A stretch of 64,000 nt of DNA from Daedaleopsis sinensis. Lineage: Eukaryota; Basidiomycota; Agaricomycetes; Polyporales; Polyporaceae. Position 1 is the first letter of the stretch. Each line of letters starts with the position of its first letter. The notes under the pieces are model-generated. The model was not told the origin of the DNA. It searched no databases and saw nothing but the letters and a program-made list of their open reading frames with translations. Shown piece by piece: positions 23,486 through 37,659 of the stretch. Made by a program: the position numbers and the translations under genes. The DNA lies in assembly GCA_033807695.1 (NCBI GenBank), contig CM066300.1:5208001-5272000 (forward strand). The letters are read 5' to 3'.

Positions 23486-24553
23486 ATGTCGTTCGATTCG
23501 GTGAGCGTCCATCGATGCCGTATCGCGCCGGGATGGGGGACTGACATCTGCACACCCCAGAATCCTCACAAACGGCCCTTCCCAGATGCTTTACACCTAG
23601 ACAAAAACATCATCGTTTCCCTGTGCTCTCACTTAAAACCGTTGGAGGTGGTGAGAGCGGCACAAGTCTCCCGCGAATGGTACCATACCGCCACACCCTT
23701 GGCATATACGCACATTGTCCTCCACGCCGGCTCGTGGAAGTCGTCCGCGGCGCTTTCGCAGACCCTCTTTCACCACGCCCACCTTCGGCACCACGTCCAA
23801 CACCTCACCGCCATTCACTGCGCACGATATTTCCCTCACTCCGGCAACTCGCTGTACGACTGGGTCACCCTCCTAGCTCCCGGTCGCCTCCGCAGCGTTC
23901 GTGCGATCGGCGGGGCCGCGCTCGTCCACTCTCTACTCTCCTTCCTCGTCGTACGCGCCGTACCGCGCCTCGAAGCCCTCACACTATTCTCCAAGACGGC
24001 CGACGATGCGCCTCCGCACGTCGACGTGTCCCATACACACTGCAGCACCGAGCACCCGCACACCGGCGGCCCTGCCCCAGACCCGCACTCAGATCGGTTC
24101 CTGCACGATCTACTCCCTCACTTCCGCATCGACTGGCCCTCTAGCCGGCGGAGCACACTCCATCTCACCCTCGCGCGTCCAGCGTCGGACGGCGGGGTCC
24201 CGCTCTCGGCCCTCCACGAGCTCCTCAGGCTCTTCCGCGAGCACCTCGCGCACGCGAACCTGCTCTGCATCGCGCTGGGCTTCGCGTCTAGCACGACACA
24301 GCCCATCTCTCGCGGCACGGACCTCTGCGAGGACGGCCTCGCGCACCTCGGACGGCAGCCGCGGCGGTGTATCTGTCGCGCTGCACCGTACACTTTTATC
24401 GCGGACGTTCCTCGGAACGCGTCTGGGGCCTGCGCGATTGTTGTCGGAGGCCAGCCGTTCCCTGTGATGACGGCGCGCGCGGTGCTCGCCTGCGTATGGT
24501 GGTGGGGTGCGGGTTCATACTCGCCCCGTCTGGGTACGAGACCAACCACGTAG
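23486..24553 (+). CDS. F-box protein B
   Basis: A single exon of 355 aa from the ATG at 23486. The F-box-like segment is LDKNIIVSLCSHLKPLEVVR followed by AAQVSREWYHTATPLAYTHI. Later parts read NSLYDWVTLLAPGRLRSVRA and IGGAALVHSLLSFLVVRAVP. It shares the general plan of F-box A (F-box, AYTH-type helix, LYDW/LYRW motif, a Cys motif near RCICRAAP) but is only distantly related to it. A decayed homologue sits at 42154-42513. The likely role is an SCF substrate adaptor. Confidence 0.72.
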   Translation: MSFDSVSVHRCRIAPGWGTDICTPQNPHKRPFPDALHLDKNIIVSLCSHLKPLEVVRAAQVSREWYHTATPLAYTHIVLHAGSWKSSAALSQTLFHHAHLRHHVQHLTAIHCARYFPHSGNSLYDWVTLLAPGRLRSVRAIGGAALVHSLLSFLVVRAVPRLEALTLFSKTADDAPPHVDVSHTHCSTEHPHTGGPAPDPHSDRFLHDLLPHFRIDWPSSRRSTLHLTLARPASDGGVPLSALHELLRLFREHLAHANLLCIALGFASSTTQPISRGTDLCEDGLAHLGRQPRRCICRAAPYTFIADVPRNASGACAIVVGGQPFPVMTARAVLACVWWWGAGSYSPRLGTRPTT

Positions 24554-25095
24554 TACATGGCTAAGGTAGCTTCGCTACGCTGTGTCTTAACTCATGCTAA
24601 ACCCTGCCGTGCGATATGATTACGACGCAATTGCAGGTTGATATACGACATCTCAATTTTTCATTCTTCGTTCCCTCGTTCACTCCTCGATATCCTTCCC
24701 TTTAGCCTCCCTCCAGTAGCACGCTAACGAGATTGGTACCAAGTACATTACGCGACGTGTCACTGAATAATATACATCTAGCGTGTAGATGAAAGCTAGC
24801 ATCAGGCTATCGTACCCACGAGAAAATGACAGACGTGCGCGGCGCGGGACATACGATAGACGTGAGACGAGCTGTATGTACGTGTGCTAGTACCTGTACT
24901 TGCGCTGCGCGCGACACATGTATACAAGACCATATGCATATGAGTATAAAGAACAAACAAGCAGAGGTCCATCGTCCGGAAGGAACGTGAGATATATAAC
25001 ACGCCCGAGCACATACTTTTACCCAGGCCAGCGGCTGCGAACCACACAGATGCAAGATGCAGCAGGAACGAGCAGAGACATCCGCACTCGCCCGC
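24554..25095. other. Intergenic region between convergent F-box B and the deubiquitinase
   Basis: Shared 3' flank of two convergent genes. No gene or repeat is supported. Confidence 0.5.
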
Positions 25096-28000
25096 TCACC
25101 GTGCAAATGTAGAAGGCGGGCCCTCCCTCCGCCCCCGCTCCCGCTCCCGCTCCCGCTCCTTGTCCTTCTCCCTGCGCCCAAACCCGAGCATCGGCGCCGT
25201 GAGGCTCAGCTTCCGCGTCGCGCGCTTCCAATTGGCCCCCGTGTTCGATCCCGCCCCCGCCCCGGCCCCCGCACTCGCACTGCCGTGCCCGCCGTCTACT
25301 ACTGCAGCAGCAGCGGATGGCGGGACGGGCGTGTCCCCGATCCCGCCCCCGCCCGTACCGCCGTACGAGAGCGAGGGCGTGAAGAACGCGCGGGGGTCCG
25401 CGTGCGTATGCGTGTGCGTGGGGAGAGGGGGCGGCGCGCGGGTCTGCGGTAGCGGAAGCGACTGAGACTGGGACACGGACGGGGACTGGACCTGGGCCTG
25501 CGACTGAGGCCGTGAGTGCGATTGCGACTGTGCCAGCGACTGTGACCGGGAGAGCGAGCTCCGGAGGGAATGTCGCGACTCAGAATGCGACGGCTGCGGG
25601 GAGCGCGAGTGCCTGCGGGTCCCAGTGTCTGCAGTAGTCCCCGCGCTGGTGCCGGCGTCGCTCAGCGAGGACGTCGAGGGGGTGAGCAGCAGCCCCGCGC
25701 CCGAGCTCGCCGGCTCCACATCCTTGCCTTTAGGCGGTAGGGGCGGCGGCTTCACATCCGTGCCGTTCGCCCCCGCCCCCGTGCCCGGGGAGGTTGGCGA
25801 GCCAGGCAGTGGCGGCAGCGGCGGGGGACCCACGAGTCCAGACGTCGGCCGCGTGCTGTGTCGTCTCGAAACCGACGACGAACCGAACCCGCCCCCGCCG
25901 CCTATCGTCGCGCCCGCCGTCGACGGGCGCGGTGGCAGCTTTGCCTGTGAAGAGCCGTGCTTCTCGCGCTTGCCCGCCGTGCGCGCGAGCTCTGGGGACG
26001 ACTTCTTGTGAGCTGCGGACGCAGATACCGACGAAGACGAAGACGAGAGCGGCCGGCTCGGCTCGGACGCGGACGCGGACATGTATGGGGGAGACGGGGC
26101 GGGGGGCGAGGACGGGTCGGAGATGGCCGCAGCGGAGCCGCGGCGGCCGAGCCGGGGCATAGTCGGGAAGTTGAGCGGGGACATCGGCGCGGGGGCGTCG
26201 GCCCCACGCGAGCTCGAGGGCCGCTTCCTGAACCACAGGCTGCTCTTCTTCTCGGGCTGGCGCTCCCTGTCTTTGTCCTTCGTTGGGGTGCCGAGCCCGT
26301 TCGTGTACGCGGTGCCTTTGGGGACGGGCGAGGGCGGGACGGACGCGTGCTCGTGGGTCTGGAAGCTGCTCGTCTCTGTGTGTGTCGATGTCGATGTCGC
26401 GGACTGCGCCGTGCGCGGGCGGCGCGTTGCGGAGGGTGAAGACGGTAGTGGGGGAATGTCGACCCCGCTTCGCCGGTCCGTCGGGCCTGTCGTGCCGTTC
26501 CGGAGGCGCAGCGAAGGCGTCTGGCGAAGGGTGTGAAAGAGACCGCCGAAAGTGTGATTATGATGTGAGGGCGACGACGGGCTAGATGATATGGTCGCAT
26601 GTCCCGAAGTGTCGACCGAAAGACTCTGGGATTGCGACACGAACAGCGGTTTCGGTGTACTCAGGGGTGAGAGAGGTGCGGGATGTGAGTACGGCAGGGA
26701 GGGCATTGGCGAGTCGCTGCTGTCCGAGACGTCTGGGTCCTCAGCAGTGAGGCCTGGGGGAGGGTGGGGTACAGGCGAGCCAGGGGCATGGCCATGATCG
26801 CTCGGGTCCAACGTGGCAATACTGAGAGGCTTGCTCGGTGTCGACCCAATGTCAGTGGCCGCCGTAGAAGCTGGAGGGGGAGTTGGGGGCTTGAGGCCAA
26901 GAGCTGGGAGGTCGATGTCAACAGCCTGGTAGTATAGCACATACGCGGACCCGCTGTTAGAATCGCCGAAGTACTTGGGTATCTCGGATTCCTTGATGGT
27001 GGACACCGTGTCGTCGTCGAAGAGCATCCAGGCGCCCCGTGCCCGGATGATCGTGACGTAGTGTCCGTGGTGCGGCCCGCTACCGCGCTCCGGCGTGAGT
27101 TCGCGTACGAGAATAGAACGATAGAAGAGACGCACGTTCCAATGTGGACGACAATTGCAAAGAGCTCGTATAATCGATCGGGATCCACGGCGTCATCCAC
27201 AGTATTGAATAGTCGAAGCTCGAATGGGAACGCTACTCGATAGGCGAGCTTAATGTACTTCTGGACGTCCTCCTGGTACTTGAAGCGCTTCAAGTGGAGT
27301 GCCAGGACGTTCGGCAGCTTCTTGATCTTCATCCTGTATGTTCGGTCTTACCAAACGGGTTACTGCGACCTATGTGACCGACAACGCACCTCTTCTCAGC
27401 CTCCTGCAGGTCGCAGCAAGAGTCGCAGAAGAACTTGTTCTTCTGGCAGAGCATCTCGCTCGCGCTGAACTGCCTGAGACACGCCGTGACCGACGAGTTC
27501 TGCTCGATGTCGATCGAGAGGTCGAGGAACGACTCGTCGCGCGAAGACACCGTTTCGCATGTCAGACAACGCGTCTCGCTCGTCAACACGCCCTCGAACA
27601 GCCGGTGCACCAGCGTCGAGTGGTAGTCCATAGCCTGCGCCGTCGACGTGGACGCGGGCGGCTGCGTGGAGAGCGTCGCGATCGATGTCGACACTGCATG
27701 TCCGACCGCGTGAGATCGACGAAACCTGGGAAGCAGAGTGCGCTCACGATCTTCGCCGGACCTGCCGACGCCGCTGCCGTTCACGCCGACCTTCCGGCCG
27801 TCGTCCTCCATGTCCTCCATGATCTTGTTCAGCAGGAAGTTGAGGAACTCGTGTGCGTCCTGGTGCGCCGAGCCGCGGAAGAGCTCGTTCAGCTCCTTGA
27901 GCTTGTCGATGAACGCGCGGGGCGCGACCGTGCCCTTGTCAGCTGGGTTTCGGCTGATATACATGAACAACGAGCGCAGGGCGGACAGCAGTGTGGGCGG

Positions 28001-29375: not shown

Positions 29376-29864
29376 GCTGGGGGCCCAAGAGCGTGGTCTT
29401 GAGCAAACCCGGGGGCGGAAGGGTGTCCAGGACGAGGAGGAAGAGAGGACGAACGGATGAGATGGGAGAGCAGGAGAGGTCAGCGTAGACCGCCCGCCGC
29501 GCCCTCCGCGCCGCCCATCCGCCCAGGCACAGTCCCTTCGTCCGCATATGGCAACTCTCAATTACATGTGTTCCATTCCCATCGCTCGTCCTCGTCCTCC
29601 CGTAAGCCACAGACATCAGCCCTGTTCATCCTCGTCTCTTCGACGAACGCTGCGAAGTAGTCGCCCTCCGAATCAACACTGGAACGTGCCTGGTGCCTGC
29701 GTGAGATCGCAACAACACATGCACCTTCTAGGGGGCCAAGACCATCACTGCGGCTCCGTAAGCTACCGACTGCAGCCGGATGTACTAACATCTTGCGCTA
29801 GAAGTACTGTAGTAGGCGCCAGTAGACAACATAGCATTTTATCATTCTACTTTGTCGGTGGGGT
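29376..29864. other. Flank between deubiquitinase start and mobile element
   Basis: This is the 5' side of the deubiquitinase gene. No separate gene is supported. Confidence 0.4.
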
Positions 29865-29873
29865 AAGTAGTTG
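29865..29873 (+). repeat. Left target-site duplication (9 bp)
   Basis: AAGTAGTTG immediately precedes the left terminal inverted repeat. The identical 9 bp follows the right terminal repeat at 37184-37192. Confidence 0.9.
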
Positions 29874-29914
29874 GGATAAATCTATTTGGAAACCCCGGGT
29901 GCTGGCAAGAACCC
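29874..29914 (+). repeat. Left terminal inverted repeat
   Basis: 41 bp beginning GGATAAATCTATTTGGAAAC and continuing through CCCGGG to AAGAACCC. It differs from the right end at two positions. A GC-rich palindromic tract follows at about 29945-29970 (CCTCCGGAGG core). Confidence 0.93.
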
Positions 29915-30545
29915 CCTTGTCTATGTAGAAACCCGGTTCTTGGCCGGACCTCCTCCGGAGGACGGCCGGTACCACTAACGCTCACGAGTGGGCGTCTACG
30001 TTCCGCCGCCTACACTAGACAACTTAAGTATCTTGCATGGCATACCGGCGTAGTATTTGCCAGCCTCGATAGTCTAGTTATTTACGCCTATAAATGCTAT
30101 CTACTTTCAGCTCGGTTGACCGTACGTGTGATGTCTGACTATCTCCCTCCGAGTCGTCCAATTGCCGACTGCCGCGGCCGCACGACCTCCCGTCTTGAAT
30201 ACGAGTCGCTCCGGTCAGTCTTGCAGTTAAGTTGGCTGTCCCTTGTGTTAAATACAAGGTGTGTCTTAGGTATCTCCTTCATAAAAGTGGCAAATTAGCA
30301 CTGGCAGTGAGTGCACCATTCCCATTCACTAGAAAGCTGAGCTAGTAGTGTTTCGAACTCTTCCAAAAAGTTGTCAAAATATGTAATTAGGCTTGGTCGC
30401 CGTCTGAGAGATGGTACTAGTAGTAAGTGACTCGAAAAACTGTGGAGACTAGCAGTAGCTAGTCTCCGTAGCTGACCATATATAGAAATGGATGATAGTC
30501 GATCCATTGTTTGATATATGGTCTGCTAGAGAACGCGTGCCCTTG

Positions 30546-30559
30546 GTAGGACCACGGCC
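30546..30559 (+). repeat. Left subterminal inverted motif
   Basis: GTAGGACCACGGCC. The exact complement is at 36571-36584. The two copies lie 672 and 599 bp from their respective element ends, as expected for protein-binding sites of a transposase. Confidence 0.55.
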
Positions 30560-30799
30560 CTTGTCTCATGCTCGTCGGATTTGATCGGGTTTGATGTGAG
30601 CCAACCAATCAAAACAGTTGTCTCCTCAGGTCACGTTCTACATTTCGCGAGCGCTATCAAGCAGTGGTATGTACCGGTCGAAAGAATTGCATTGACTCCT
30701 CTACAGAGCACCAACCACCGTACAGGTGGGAGACAAGTTCTAAGCATCATGCAATGCGAAACTAATACATAGCAAAGCACCTGTAATAGTGCTTCTACC

Positions 30800-33700
30800 A
30801 TGGATCGGACTGGACATAGGAGCCTCCCTGCTGGTGGTCACGGTGTGGGTCGCAACCGAGGAGACTCAGCTAGCCCATCGAAACAACGGCGCTCTGCAGA
30901 CGAGAAACTTGCGTTGATGCTCGCGCTGCTGGACGAAATTCACTGGACGGTCGGCGACTTCTTGCATATGCTTTTCCGGACAAAGACTGAGCACGGACTG
31001 ACCATTGTGCGGGATAAACGTCTCGAAACTTCCCTATCTCACTTTCTCTGCGGGCGCACATCACATACCCCAATCGAAATAATCCAGCTGTGGCTAGATC
31101 ATCCATTCTCTTATCCTGCTACAACAGCTCAGCACTCGGAGGGACTATATTCATTTGACAAGCCATACCTCAAAGTCAAGCACGCTCGGGCGGCTATCAC
31201 TTCGATGGCCGTACAAATATGTGAACGTCGCATGCTTGAGGAAGTCCGACAGGCAGTTCGAGGTCGTCATGGCTTGCATGGAAGTCAAGATGCAGGAGGT
31301 GGTCGGAAGAAGCTAGGCTGGTCAGATATCGGACCTCATACAGTCAGCGTGGTCGGGAAGATACTGGAGAGACACCAGCCACTTACTCTCCGCCTTTTGA
31401 CGTCTATCGCTACTCCGAAGGCTCGGAGTGACACCAAGTATTCTGCTGCAGAGCGGAAACAACGCCCACCACAACTCGTAAGCTTCTTGCACTCACGCTT
31501 CACATGCGGATGCAAGCTGTTACTCACCTTGAATTAACCGGCAGGTTGCTATCGAGGCTCTGAGTACTATTGACTTCTCTCATACGTCCCATGCACGGCT
31601 CCTTCCCGCTACTAGGTCAATTATGCACTTTGCATGCGGGGCCTCGCATGTTCTGTGGAGCACCGGCAGCCGGACAGGTCATACTCAGAGCTGGAGTACG
31701 ACCTACGGGACCCTCAGGGATCTTGCGAAACAAGATGCTGCAGAGATCATCAAGCTTGGTCAGGACGAGACGAGGTGGATCGTTGGACGAGGGGACAACG
31801 TACAGCAACACCACAAGCAGAGAGAGCGACGGATCGGACGGGAGAACGTGATGCGGGTTGGAGTTGCTGGTACGGTTGCGGAGGTGGAGGACTTCGTGCC
31901 AGAGGCCGCTGACTTGGACGACAAGCTGCGACGCATTAATGCAGGTCTGCGCAAGAGCCTCAGCGTCGAGGACCTCTTCAACATGATTGACTTCGCGCAC
32001 CTTGCTGAGGTCGCCGCGCTGCAGTGGCTTCAAACCTTGGTCAACCATGTGCCCTCGCTATCGCACTATAAACGCGACCTCGTAAATGTCTACGCAACCG
32101 AAGGGGATGGTGCAAAACTGAAAATACCTACTCGCCGCACCCGCATCCATCCGCTCGCACCGGTCGCGAAGAATGAGACCATTACTACAGAGCTACGAGA
32201 CACAATGGTCGACTTTCTAGGGCAGCTTGGTCAGCATGAAGATTCCTACAACCGGCGGTTGATCCTGTTTGGAGGAGATGGACTTACGTTCGAGGCACTT
32301 ATCAAGTTGAAGAACTACTTGCGCGCAGCGGGCCCGGAAACCTCGGAGTTCGAGCGGCTTGAGCTTGTCACCCCTTTCCTGGAGACCTGGCATACCGAGG
32401 TGACATATCTAACCGCCATCTATCAGACACACTTCGAGAGTGCCCTTACTCCCGACCCGAGCAAACTTGGACATAGCTCGACCAAAATTGATCAGAAGGC
32501 ACCGGCGAACTTGAAGAAGATTGATTACTATAAAGATTGCTGGACTGCGTACAAAGTCCTGGATGTTCGTCAACTCGATTGCTGGAGGTGCGAAATTATT
32601 CCAATCTTACTGTTATGGTGCCGGTGCAGTGAGCTCAGAGTTTGTCGCAGATTGCACCTCGGTTGTGATGATCTAGAAGAGCACTTTAGCGGTTTGATCA
32701 CTCAGAAGAAGCTGCCGACGTTTAACGAGCTGCGGGACAGTGCACGGACCCTGAACCGCATGTACGCGACCACACACGCTGCAGAAGATGCACTGAAGGG
32801 GAAAGCTCAAAGGCGCGGTTGGAAACAGGGCTCACCTTGGACTCCACTTGCGAAACAAGCTCCTAGCACATCATCAAAGACACGCGCAGGGAAGGGCACG
32901 TTGCCACAAGAGCGCCTCGGAGACACTGGTGTCACTGACGACCTTGCGGACTTCAGCGGAGACCGTGTTCTCGCGCAATCCATTCTTTTCATGCGCGATA
33001 CCATCATGTCGAAGGCAATGGCTGAATGTGTATCGCGCGGAGATGTCGGGACAGTGTATGAGTGCATGAAGGTGAGTTAAAGGTTGTAGATGATCGGCGA
33101 GAATGCTCATGTGCGTATGTTAATGCTGCAGTGGATGGTGTTCAGCTTCGAGGGGTCCGGGCACCATTCCAAGTACACCGCATACGTACTGGAGATGATA
33201 TGCAACCTGGAGCTTGAGTCTAGTCCGGCTCTCCGCGAGGTGTTCCTGCGCAACTGGTTAGTTAACCCATCTGGCGAGGTGAACGGCCACCAAGAAGGCG
33301 ACCTAATGGAGGAGCACTATAACCGGATCCTCGAGGAGTTTGTCGAACGAAAGAGCTTGGAGTGGGACGACACCTTCCTGCGTGAGGTTATCGCACCAAA
33401 CGTACACCACTTCAACGCATTGAAAAATCGATTCGGTACCGGACTAGGCCTCGCAGAACGTCAAGGGAGGCACCCCGAACCACATAGCCGCCCGGAGGTC
33501 AAGATTCTACAGAGCGAGTACAGAAGAAGCGAGCTACATTTATTCCGTCGAGGACGAACATTCCCACAGTCTTCGCAGACGAAGGACATGTTCAGCATTG
33601 GAGTAGAGAAGCTGCAAGACGGGAAACTTAGCCATTGGATCACTGCATCAATGCGGGCCAGGGACAGCCTCGGAGGTCATAGCTCAAGTGGGATAGAAGA

Positions 33701-33917
33701 CGAACCTAGCGATCATGAAGACGAAACCGGTGGCGACGGAGATGCTGTAGAGGAGAGTTTAACTCATCTCCCAACACGTGGTGCAAGGCATTTGATTAAC
33801 GGAGAGCTGGTGTTCGAGCTCGAGACGGATGTTCTTGGCGGTGGTAGAACTGGTACATTGGACAGCTCGGATGACGGGACGGGAGACGAGGAGAGCGGAG
33901 ATGATGTAGATGTCTAA
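30800..33917 (+). CDS. DUF6589 protein, candidate transposase of the TIR element
   Basis: Three exons (30800-31477, 31545-33071, 33132-33917) give 996 aa in one frame. The N-terminus is basic and Ser-rich, followed by helices that read KLALMLALLDEIHWTVGDFL and LSHFLCGRTSHTPIEIIQLW. The conserved DUF6589 body has ALSTIDFSHTSHARLLPATR, MHFACGASHVLW, GRGDNVQQH (Asp about residue 310), MIDFAHLAEVAALQWLQTLV, ILFGGDGLTFEAL (Asp about 471), DPSKLGHSSTKIDQKAPANL, LKKIDYYKDCWTAYKVLDVR and LDCWR. The C-terminus is acidic (DDGTGDEESGDDVDV). The DNVQ and GGDGLTFE motifs could be two acidic residues of an RNase H-type DDE active site, which is inference. Its TAA overlaps the helicase TAG by two bases. Confidence 0.85.
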
Positions 33918-36364
33918 CCCTTGCGAGGTACTGTATTCTCCTTGTTCTGTAGCGAAAGTCGTAGCGTGACATGAACAACAATGTCGCAAATCGCACGGCA
34001 TGAGTCACTCACCAAGGCACACTTCCGTTTCGATGCTGGTCCAGCTTCGGCAACAGTCTCACAGCGCGGACGCTTCGCTCCAGCCCTTGGCGGCGGCCTA
34101 CGAGGAGCAGTCTGACCGAAGTCCAGAACATGCATTGCATAGGTAGCACCTGCCTTGATAACCTTGCTGCTCGTGCTTATGGGAACGAAGTGAGGTTAAT
34201 GAACGCGCATTGGATCGGCAGAGTTCACGTACCTATCACTGGTGTTGGTGTAGCTCGAGCCATCCTGCAGAACTGCGGGTAACACGGCCGTTGTACTCTG
34301 CACCGAGGAAACACTTGCCAGAATAGTCGGTGCCGTTGAGATAGACAACAGCCCTGGTTCTCCCTCTCGACCATGGCCCCCCAGCGACAGCACAGGCTTC
34401 GGATCACCCTCCTCATCGCAATCGAGATCGCTGGAGTCCTCGACATCGCTGAGATATTGCTGGTCTTCATGGGAGGCAGCTTGACGCCTCTCTGCAGCCT
34501 TGAGACGACGTTCCTCCTTCGTGGCTGCTCGCATCTTCTCGAAGTCGTCCTGAAGACGCTGGACAGCAGCCCAAAGCACTTCAATATGAGGGAGGAGAAG
34601 AGACTTCCCGGGGATGAGAGCACGTAGGTCGTCGATTGAAGCGAGAAGGGGACAGTCGTCAAGGATTTGATTGATCACAAGCTGGGGGAGGTATGCTGCC
34701 GAAGGAAGTCCCTCCGAGAGGGCGCTGTCATCGAGGGAGTCGTAGATGTTCTCACGAAGCTTGAGAAGAGCCTCTGTGCCGTGTTTACGCATGATGCGAG
34801 TGAGCCGTTTCGATTGAGGAATCGGATTCGCTGACTTCTTCGGCAGTGCTGACATACTCGACGGCCCGGGAGCCAGATCTTCTGGTGCGCAACCGCTGCA
34901 GTTACAACGGAGGGGGAGGAGAGGTGCGGGGCGTGCTTTACACGTTGTGCAAGAGCAAGGTGTGTCGGTACGGGGGTTGTTGTAGAGGATGTTCTGCGCT
35001 GCCACCTTGCATGGAGCGATCATCAGCTGCGCGATGCTGACATCCATCGTCTGCTTCGCACGCTTCTCACCTGGCAGTTGCGGACCGCGGGCAGCAGTAG
35101 GAGACTTGACAACGGTGCGTGCGAGTTCGGGGGCTTTCTTCGTGTAGTACGTGATGACCCGAGCATCACGTACAACCGTGGGATCCCTGCCTGCGCGTCC
35201 ACCCCACTGCACCCATTCATCCGCGCTGTCGGGCTGCTGAGTGAGAATGACATCGTGGATGTTTGGCAAGTCCACGCCGACCATGAATGAAGCTGTTGCA
35301 ATGATGATCTGTGCGCGAGAGTCATTGCGCATGAGATCTCGTGTCTTCTCGTTGTACTTGGGCCACATAAGCGAGTTGTAAGTGCGGATGCGTATGTTGG
35401 GGTGATCTGATGCTGGACACAGCTTCCGGAGATAGCATAGGAGTCGGAAGCTCAGGACAATAGTGCGACAGTAGAGTACGGTCTTCCGACGGCCATCCAG
35501 CACCCACCGGAAGTCAGGGAATGTCCATCCTCCGAGGCCGTGAGAGAGTGGTCGGAAGAGCAGCTGGAGTTCTGGTCGGACGTTTGACCGGTGAAGGAAA
35601 TAGTGGTAATCCGGATAGAGACCCAGCAGATCACAGACGGTCTTCTTCGGCTTCCCATGCAGTAGACTTGCCGTCGTGCAGGCCAGGCGTACCCCGCCAG
35701 GCATGCGAGCACGCGCAAAACCCAGTTGTTGAAAGTCGTTGCGGAATCCGGCACCCCATGAGTTTAGGAGATGAACCTCATCGATCCCGAGGGCGCAGAT
35801 GCGCTGCTGGAAGACCGGCTGCTGAAGGAGTGCCTCGAAGTCTCGGGAACAGAGCAGCTCTGGGGAGAGTAAGATGATATGGTGATCTTTTGCTGCGGCC
35901 TCCCAAAGAGTAGGTCGCTTTCCACGCGCAGCTTGCAGTGTCCGAGAATTGATGACTAGCGGCTTCAATTTGAGCGTGTCGAATGTGCTAGCCTGCATGT
36001 ATAATATTACTACTGTTATGCACCGTGACGTATGATGGGAGTCTCTTACCATCTCCTCCTCCAGCCCTATTGTCGGGTACACTATGACCATGCATGGATT
36101 TTGCGGGGTCTGGGTCCAGGGAGGGTCACAGAGGGACGGATTCTTGCTGAGTGCGAGCTGGAGGAGCATGTACATTGTGAAGTACCCTGTTTTTCCACTC
36201 CCAGTGGCAATGACGGCGAGAAGATCGATGCCGTCCATGAGTTTGCAGATGCCCTCGAGTTGGTAGTCGTGCGGATCGTAAGGGAGGGATTCCGAGAGTG
36301 TGCTGCGAGCGAGGCGGCGGCCTTCATCCGAGCTCCACTTGAAGCCCGGAGGACCGCCCGACAT
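33914..36364 (-). CDS. RecQ-like superfamily 2 DNA helicase of the TIR element
   Basis: Four exons (36050-36364, 34233-35992, 34013-34175, 33914-33946) total 2271 nt, or 756 aa. Introns of 57 bp at 35993-36049 and 34176-34232 and one of 66 bp at 33947-34012 keep the frame. If the last is retained the stop is unchanged. Motifs: YQLEGICKLMDGIDLLAVIA with Walker A ATGSGKT (residues 53-59), IDEVHLLNSWGAGFRNDF (motif II as DEVH), LACTTASLLHG (III), TVLYCRTIVLSFRLLCYL (IV), IIIATASFMVGVDLPNIHDV (V) and QWGGRAGRD (VI, about 365-375). A Cys cluster (CSCTTC and CNCSGC) follows like the RecQ zinc domain. The C-terminus has KRPRCE and SKRKC basic patches. It probably unwinds DNA during movement or replication of the element. 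Telomere-linked RecQ helicases of fungi are the best-known mobile-associated relatives. Confidence 0.88.
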
Positions 36365-36570
36365 CGAGTTTTCGAGCGCGGTAGTGACACTAGTAGATGA
36401 CTATATTGCAGAGATTGTATGCCCAAGCGTAGTGCTGTAGGGTAGTGCCGTAGAGTAGCGATGTAGACGAAGCAGACAAGCGGCGGCGGCGACGAGCCGA
36501 CGCGTTATTTGCGCATGTGTACGCGACTACCGTGTGGGAAATCAATCACGTGTACCGAATAAACCCGAAA

Positions 36571-36584
36571 GGCCGTGGTCCTAC
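36571..36584 (-). repeat. Right subterminal inverted motif
   Basis: GGCCGTGGTCCTAC, the exact complement of 30546-30559, near the helicase promoter side. Confidence 0.55.
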
Positions 36585-37142
36585 TAACCGCTCCATCTCG
36601 ACCAAGACTAAGCAGTAGCCTCAGTGTGATACGACTACGCAGCGTACGCTCGCTAACGGGCGTCCAGGACGCGGAAGGGCGGGAAAAGTACCAACTCGAA
36701 GCTAGAGGGCTCTCCAGCTCGAGCGGTAGTCTTATACTCTGGGCTACAGTAGTCTATGAGGGTATAATGTGTATCTACCTGTCGGGGGCAGTGTACGTGC
36801 AGGTGCGCGCGACGTACAATGTGTACACTCGTACCCAAAGTGATCGAAGCGGAGACTGAAAAGAATGATGCGAAGACCAAAAACGGACATGCTCGTAACA
36901 CTTGGTAGCGCTCGCAGGGATGTTGTATTTCTTGAACATAGTAACCCGGAGCAGCCTGGGTGTTCTCTCCTCTAGGCAGACGATGTACAGGCCCTATTGA
37001 ACGGGAGAGGACATACCAGAACGTCGAGTCGGTAGACGCAAGGTCAACGCTCACGCGCGGCGCGCGGCCGGCATGGGCGCCTGCCGACCGTCCGGGCGCC
37101 AGAATTATTATCGTGGGTTTACATCACTTCCTCAAAAGAACC

Positions 37143-37183
37143 GGGTTCTTACCAGCTCCCGGGGTTTCCAAATAGATTTATCC
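37143..37183 (-). repeat. Right terminal inverted repeat
   Basis: On the minus strand it begins GGATAAATCTATTTGGAAAC as the left end does. Just inside is a palindrome AAGAACCGGGTTCTT (37137-37151). Confidence 0.93.
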
Positions 37184-37192
37184 AAGTAGTTG
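37184..37192 (+). repeat. Right target-site duplication (9 bp)
   Basis: AAGTAGTTG, identical to 29865-29873. Removing the element and one copy leaves a continuous flank GGGT-AAGTAGTTG-GTGAGG. Confidence 0.9.
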
Positions 37193-37659
37193 GTGAGGAG
37201 TACTAGTACTACTGGTTATCGCATAGATCTGTCTAACACAACAAATCAACACGCATAAACACACATCCGCTGCTTCTCCTTTTTCCTTTATGCAGCCTGA
37301 CTCGTCTTGTTAGCACTCGTACTAGTGGCGTCAGTTCGAACCAGGGCCGATTCATGTTTTTGACAACTTTTTTCGACCTCTTCTACCACAGGCTATATAC
37401 ATATACATGCGCCAGTCCTCCAAGAGCTTGCAGGACTCACTAGTACTCACTCATCGTCGACTGATTCAATCATCCCCGAGGACGGATCTAGCATCACGGG
37501 ACCGTACGTACAGCTACGTACAGTGGCCACTATGGGCGCTAGCTACCCCGCATACAGGCTAGGATCCGGACCGGCTGCAACAACTTCCCCCTCGAACTCG
37601 ACAAACTATCTTCGTCTCTCGTTCACCCAAGTTGCTCTCAAGACGACACTTCGTACCTC
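37193..37659. other. Flank between mobile element and mccA
   Basis: 467 bp with no gene. It is presumably what remains of the mccA promoter region. The element ends about 480 bp before the mccA ATG, so insertion may have separated the gene from upstream control sites. Confidence 0.4.

Follow-up and report, generated by a model that had tools for sequence, protein, structure and literature searches.

A DUF6589 gene and a RecQ-like helicase gene within a complete terminal-inverted-repeat transposon of Daedaleopsis sinensis, likely an AcademH element

DUF6589 is listed in Pfam as a family of unknown function, and a locus of the basidiomycete Daedaleopsis sinensis in which a DUF6589 gene faces a RecQ-like helicase gene between inverted repeats raises the question of whether this domain belongs to mobile DNA and, if so, to which kind. 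The locus lies within a 64,000-nucleotide stretch of contig CM066300.1 (assembly GCA_033807695.1), hereafter the window, to which all positions given without a contig name refer. An earlier note on this DNA had taken DUF6589 for the transposase of a complete transposon, the helicase for its companion, and the whole for a transposon group not yet described. Our answer, held with considerable confidence, is that the locus is a complete terminal inverted repeat (TIR) transposon with a 9-bp target site duplication (TSD), likely of the AcademH type, in which DUF6589 is the predicted DDE transposase and the RecQ-like helicase would assist movement.

The element occupies 7,310 bp, from 29874 to 37183. 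Its 41-nt TIRs pair at 39 of the 41 positions (95% complementary), in agreement with the two mismatches reported earlier, and of 17 inverted pairs listed across the region they are the longest. The perfect 9-bp flanking duplication claimed for the element was likewise confirmed, AAGTAGTTG being present on either side, and the TIRs, the TSD and the enclosed gene pair together support its description as a complete TIR transposon. The ends and flanks are:

29865-29873, no strand: left TSD copy, AAGTAGTTG, by flank reading
29874-29914, plus strand: left TIR, 41 nt, from the inverted-pair listing
37143-37183, minus strand: right TIR, 41 nt, from the inverted-pair listing
37184-37192, no strand: right TSD copy, AAGTAGTTG, by flank reading

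A chance origin of these ends was considered and rejected: in a shuffled-flank control, a 14-nt TIR (at most 3 mismatches) combined with a perfect 8-10-bp duplication appeared in 0 of 100 trials, and random window flanks gave an exact 9-bp match 12 times per 2,000,000 draws. The left end is found again on C10, C11 and C2 of the same genome. When the element's flanks were joined as an empty site (predicted to read GGGTAAGTAGTTGGTGAGG) and compared with their own assembly, the sole matches were the two flanks themselves, and an Rfam scan of 29800-37300 found nothing.

Two genes lie inside the element, facing each other and, by the present splicing, meeting near 33914-33917:

30800-33917, plus strand: DUF6589 gene, predicted DDE transposase (exons 30800-31477, 31545-32587, 32651-33071 and 33132-33917; 975 aa)
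33914-36364, minus strand: RecQ-like helicase gene, convergent (exons 36364-36050, 35992-34233 and 34166-33914; 775 aa; last exon uncertain)

Intact spliced frames of 996 and 756 aa had been described for them, and this stands in part. Both frames are open, and the 996-aa DUF6589 protein is reproduced if a 63-nt in-frame intron is retained; the helicase, by the present splicing, comes to 775 aa with an uncertain C-terminus. Since a 21-residue stretch of the 996-aa version is absent from homologues, and since 32588-32650 has GT...AG borders, a third intron and a protein of 975 aa appear more likely. In the 996-aa version, Pfam places DUF6589 at residues 362-849 (E=1.6e-115), and at E<=1 it is the only domain recognised in this protein, with no hAT or P domain. 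The helicase carries DEAD and Helicase_C domains within its first 691 residues, RecQ-family helicases lead its PDB sequence matches (E=1.5e-14), and its best NCBIfam models are DpdF (3.2e-21) and recQ_fam (5.3e-21), both under their curated cut-offs. No nuclease domain was detected by Pfam in the DUF6589 protein or in the helicase residues scanned (all but the last ~84). Past the helicase core, at about 34880-34970, the helicase gene encodes a cysteine cluster (PCSCTTCK..RCNCSGC) that is a candidate zinc site.

The closest match found to the window DUF6589 protein is one from Daedaleopsis nitida, with 73% identity. Protein searches returned 88 distinct proteins, 87 of which are labelled only DUF6589, the label standing on 19/19, 44/44 and 42/43 matches in the individual searches; among the names shown for these matches, some of them incomplete, none says transposase. 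No named match fell outside Agaricomycetes, and the animal side of AcademH was therefore not reached. Within the genome, differences in the main DUF6589 exon, counted by codon position, are 54/32/243 between C7 and C4, and 27/21/183 between C11 and C6:2.0M, an excess of silent differences which implies that the protein was under selection while the families diverged.

For two diverged lineages of DUF6589, the structures predicted are most like Hermes, the P element and RAG1, and the predicted fold is RNase H-like, as had been suspected, with a conserved D...D...E in both lineages. The acidic residues proposed earlier, in GRGDNVQ and GGDGLTFE, correspond well to this prediction, as these motifs contain its first two catalytic residues:

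31794-31796, plus strand: codon of predicted catalytic D310 (GRGDNVQ), from alignment and predicted fold
32277-32279, plus strand: codon of predicted catalytic D471 (GGDGLTFE), from alignment
32391-32393, plus strand: codon of H509 (LETWH), from alignment
33312-33314, plus strand: codon of predicted catalytic E775 (EGDLMEEH), from alignment and the range ends of the structure matches

A large helical insertion is predicted between D471 and E775, and the counterpart of H509, which is a histidine in 45/45 aligned rows, may sit in a C/DxxH-like place as in hAT and P. The structure matches of the predicted models also include glucokinase, Prp8 and similar rows, and the DUF6589 profile, compared with PDB sequences, had a single match (E 4), to a protein other than a transposase. 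Based on the likeness of the predicted structures to Hermes, the P element and RAG1, and on the conserved D...D...E, we take DUF6589 to be, very probably, a DDE transposase, which supports the role first proposed for it.

All locus counts that follow come from one genome (51.6 Mb, 24 contigs). The DUF6589 search gave at least 30 matches, grouped as at least 16 loci, and the search with the window helicase gave at least 16 matches; for 15 of those listed a DUF6589 match is no more than 6 kb distant, and for the other, on C9, the distance is about 10 kb. A helicase lies convergently downstream at 13 of the 16 listed DUF6589 loci, 11 of these coming from the genome searches and two being the C5 loci (weak, E about 4e-7); at C9 the helicase pieces are on the opposite side, and the genome search with the window helicase revealed none at either C8:1745897 or the C11:1239893 fragment. 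Ends were sought at 11 of the 16 listed loci (all but C3:2548255, C3:2561688, C2:982673, C8:2292589 and C8:1745897), and complete elements, having inverted ends and an 8-10-bp duplication, were recognised at 7/16, the window locus included. At C6:3.07M, C2:1.67M, C9 and the C11 fragment (4/16), the search for TIRs and TSDs gave only weak 8-bp candidates with 3/12 mismatches, and these loci are perhaps decayed copies. Other DUF6589 genes had been expected to have TIR and TSD ends and a neighbouring helicase; six of the 15 other loci do, the helicase there being convergent, no ends were found at four, and five are unread.

The complete elements belong to families with different ends. The C11 element measures 6,139 bp, with TSD CCATGCAAG and a perfect 207-bp TIR, and the C7 element 6,096 bp, with TSD AGTGTTGAT, while TRGTCTCGTRMCCAGACG-type ends occur on C4 (TSD 10 bp; the right end with two differences from this type) and on C6:2.0M (TSD 8 bp). 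The two C5 elements, C5a and C5b, are 99.96-100% identical across two shared blocks and differ in their 8-bp duplications, which suggests that at least one of them moved recently. The DUF6589 region of C5a also holds a 1,355-bp insert (L042, C5:4199436-4200790) with CATCAGG..CCTGATG ends and a TG duplication, which fits the description of PlavakaB in the available text of PMC12730594.

Joint movement of the two genes is recorded on C11, where a short, non-autonomous member of the window element's family has taken in the DUF6589-helicase element, the host copy being flanked by its own TSD, GAGGGATGG. The borders of the nested element fall at positions 159-167 of the window element, where one 9-bp copy has become two:

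30032-30040, plus strand: CTTGCATGG, single in the window, bordering the nested element on both sides in the C11 copy, by sequence comparison

The uninterrupted stretch in the window is therefore a paralogous empty site of the C11 nested insertion. The claim that the helicase moves together with DUF6589 is backed by this insertion as well as by the near-identical C5 copies. A further short derivative, on C10, is 1,168 bp long with TSD GCTGGACAG, and aligns with the window element over 601 bp at the left (95.5%) and 576 bp at the right (97.9%).

Target duplications were surveyed in 22 insertions, chosen for having both ends recognised and read at both edges; perfect duplications of 8-10 bp were present in 21 of them, the length being 9 bp in 15, 10 bp in two and 8 bp in four, with none in the remaining one (L055). 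Outside this sample are one-ended copies (C2:3161081), a further TAGTCTCGTAACC pair (C4:549012), TGGTCTCGTACCC short pairs, the sister pairs C5:1786327 and C3:4140117, and four loci without recognised ends. The C7/C11-type end pattern has 243 occurrences in the genome at no more than 2 mismatches, versus 13 for a reversed control, and a lone perfect C11-type end lies in the window at 24527-24544, minus strand, with no inverted partner within 23600-25600. A short MITE family (L055-L064) with TAGTCTCGTAACCAGACG ends measures 283 bp in 7/10 copies read and has perfect 9-bp duplications in 9/10, L055 (C1:821056-821329) being the copy without a matching duplication, its flanks agreeing at 7/9 bases. 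At C3:4140117-4149879, two facing sister-family ends (GGATAA..) are separated by 9.8 kb in which no DUF6589 match was listed; they are perhaps two MITEs or an unusual element.

Among published groups, AcademH (Kojima 2020, Mob DNA 11:15) offers the closest description. According to the available text of PMC10045372, its TSDs are 9 or 10 bp and those of AcademX 3-4 bp, a difference related to the presence of a helicase or a nuclease; its hosts are animals and fungi (PMC10045372, PMC10799480), and it is low-copy in Basidiomycota, Ascomycota and Mucoromycota (PMC10799480). A RecQ helicase has been reported in Academ (PMC3627910), and most fungal Academ copies contain domains that can be recognised, PF00270 and recQ_fam among them, and frequently bear host-gene annotations (PMC6416283); the portions of these last two accounts available to us do not name DUF6589. 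The window element agrees with the AcademH description in its RecQ-type helicase (DEAD, Helicase_C and RecQ-family PDB matches), which matches PF00270 and, below the curated cut-off, TIGR00614 recQ_fam, as in fungal Academ. It also agrees in its 9-bp TSD, with 17/22 insertions at 9-10 bp, in its TIRs (41 nt here, 207 nt and perfect in the C11 nested element), in its DDD/E transposase as predicted from the RNase H-like fold and the D-D-E of two lineages, and in its low-copy presence in Basidiomycota. AcademX shares the Academ superfamily name, but it is described with a nuclease and a shorter TSD; the window element has a 9-bp TSD, and its scanned protein sequences showed no nuclease domain. 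By these published traits, with the Academ transposases compared through their descriptions rather than by sequence, the window element is likely a member of AcademH. The suggestion of a new, undescribed group was not upheld, because AcademH and RecQ-carrying fungal Academs are already in print, as far as the available text goes, with just such marks: a helicase of RecQ type, TSDs of 9-10 bp and occurrence in fungi.

Other readings of the same evidence must nevertheless be weighed. DUF6589 could constitute a superfamily of its own, with a hAT/P-like DDE transposase unrelated by descent to that of Academ, the RecQ helicase and the 8-10-bp TSD having been gained independently and the likeness to AcademH being convergent. 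The closest folds, those of Hermes and the P element, are in keeping with this, as are the fact that the Academ reference proteins are known here by description alone and the 8-bp TSDs in 4/22 insertions, which depart from the 9-10 bp of AcademH. Yet the combination of a RecQ helicase, 9-10-bp TSDs and low copy number in Basidiomycota jointly matches what the accessible descriptions give for AcademH and fungal Academ; we regard this reading as unlikely. The helical insertion predicted between the second D and the E resembles the transposases of Hermes and the P element; the window protein has no recognisable hAT or P domain (Pfam E<=1), and, to our knowledge, hAT and P elements carry no helicase.

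Kolobok elements duplicate TTAA at their target, whereas the window element is flanked by AAGTAGTTG and varied duplications of 8-10 bp are seen in 21/22 insertions, and on duplication length an identity with KolobokH, which we consider highly improbable, was rejected. It had been worth considering, as KolobokH, according to the available text of PMC9587614, has been reported solely from fungi and carries RecQ, and is thus similar to the window element in host and helicase; the helicase here, however, is a separate gene on the opposite strand. Hardly credible at all is the idea that two host genes lie by chance between separate MITEs with the same ends, which the earlier note had itself raised against its claim. 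Short same-ended copies such as the C10 derivative do exist, but a single 9-bp duplication brackets the whole unit, and this reading is ruled out by the joint movement of both genes seen in the C11 nested insertion and in the C5 copies.

For the likely AcademH transposon that we favour, the DUF6589 transposase would bind both TIRs, excise the element and insert it with a staggered cut, usually of 9 bp. The helicase may open the ends or the target, or it may serve repair or replication after the cut, and the short copies could be mobilised in trans. DUF6589 was not found named in the literature searched, and its assignment as a transposase appears to be the new part of this work; as the element is likely AcademH, its chief value would lie in pointing to a likely function of DUF6589. 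If DUF6589 is indeed the transposase of helicase-carrying elements, DUF6589 proteins could be re-annotated as mobile DNA, there would be no need to class the adjoining RecQ-like helicases among host repair genes, and the catalytic residues, ends and short derivatives would be ready for probing what a helicase contributes to DDE transposition.
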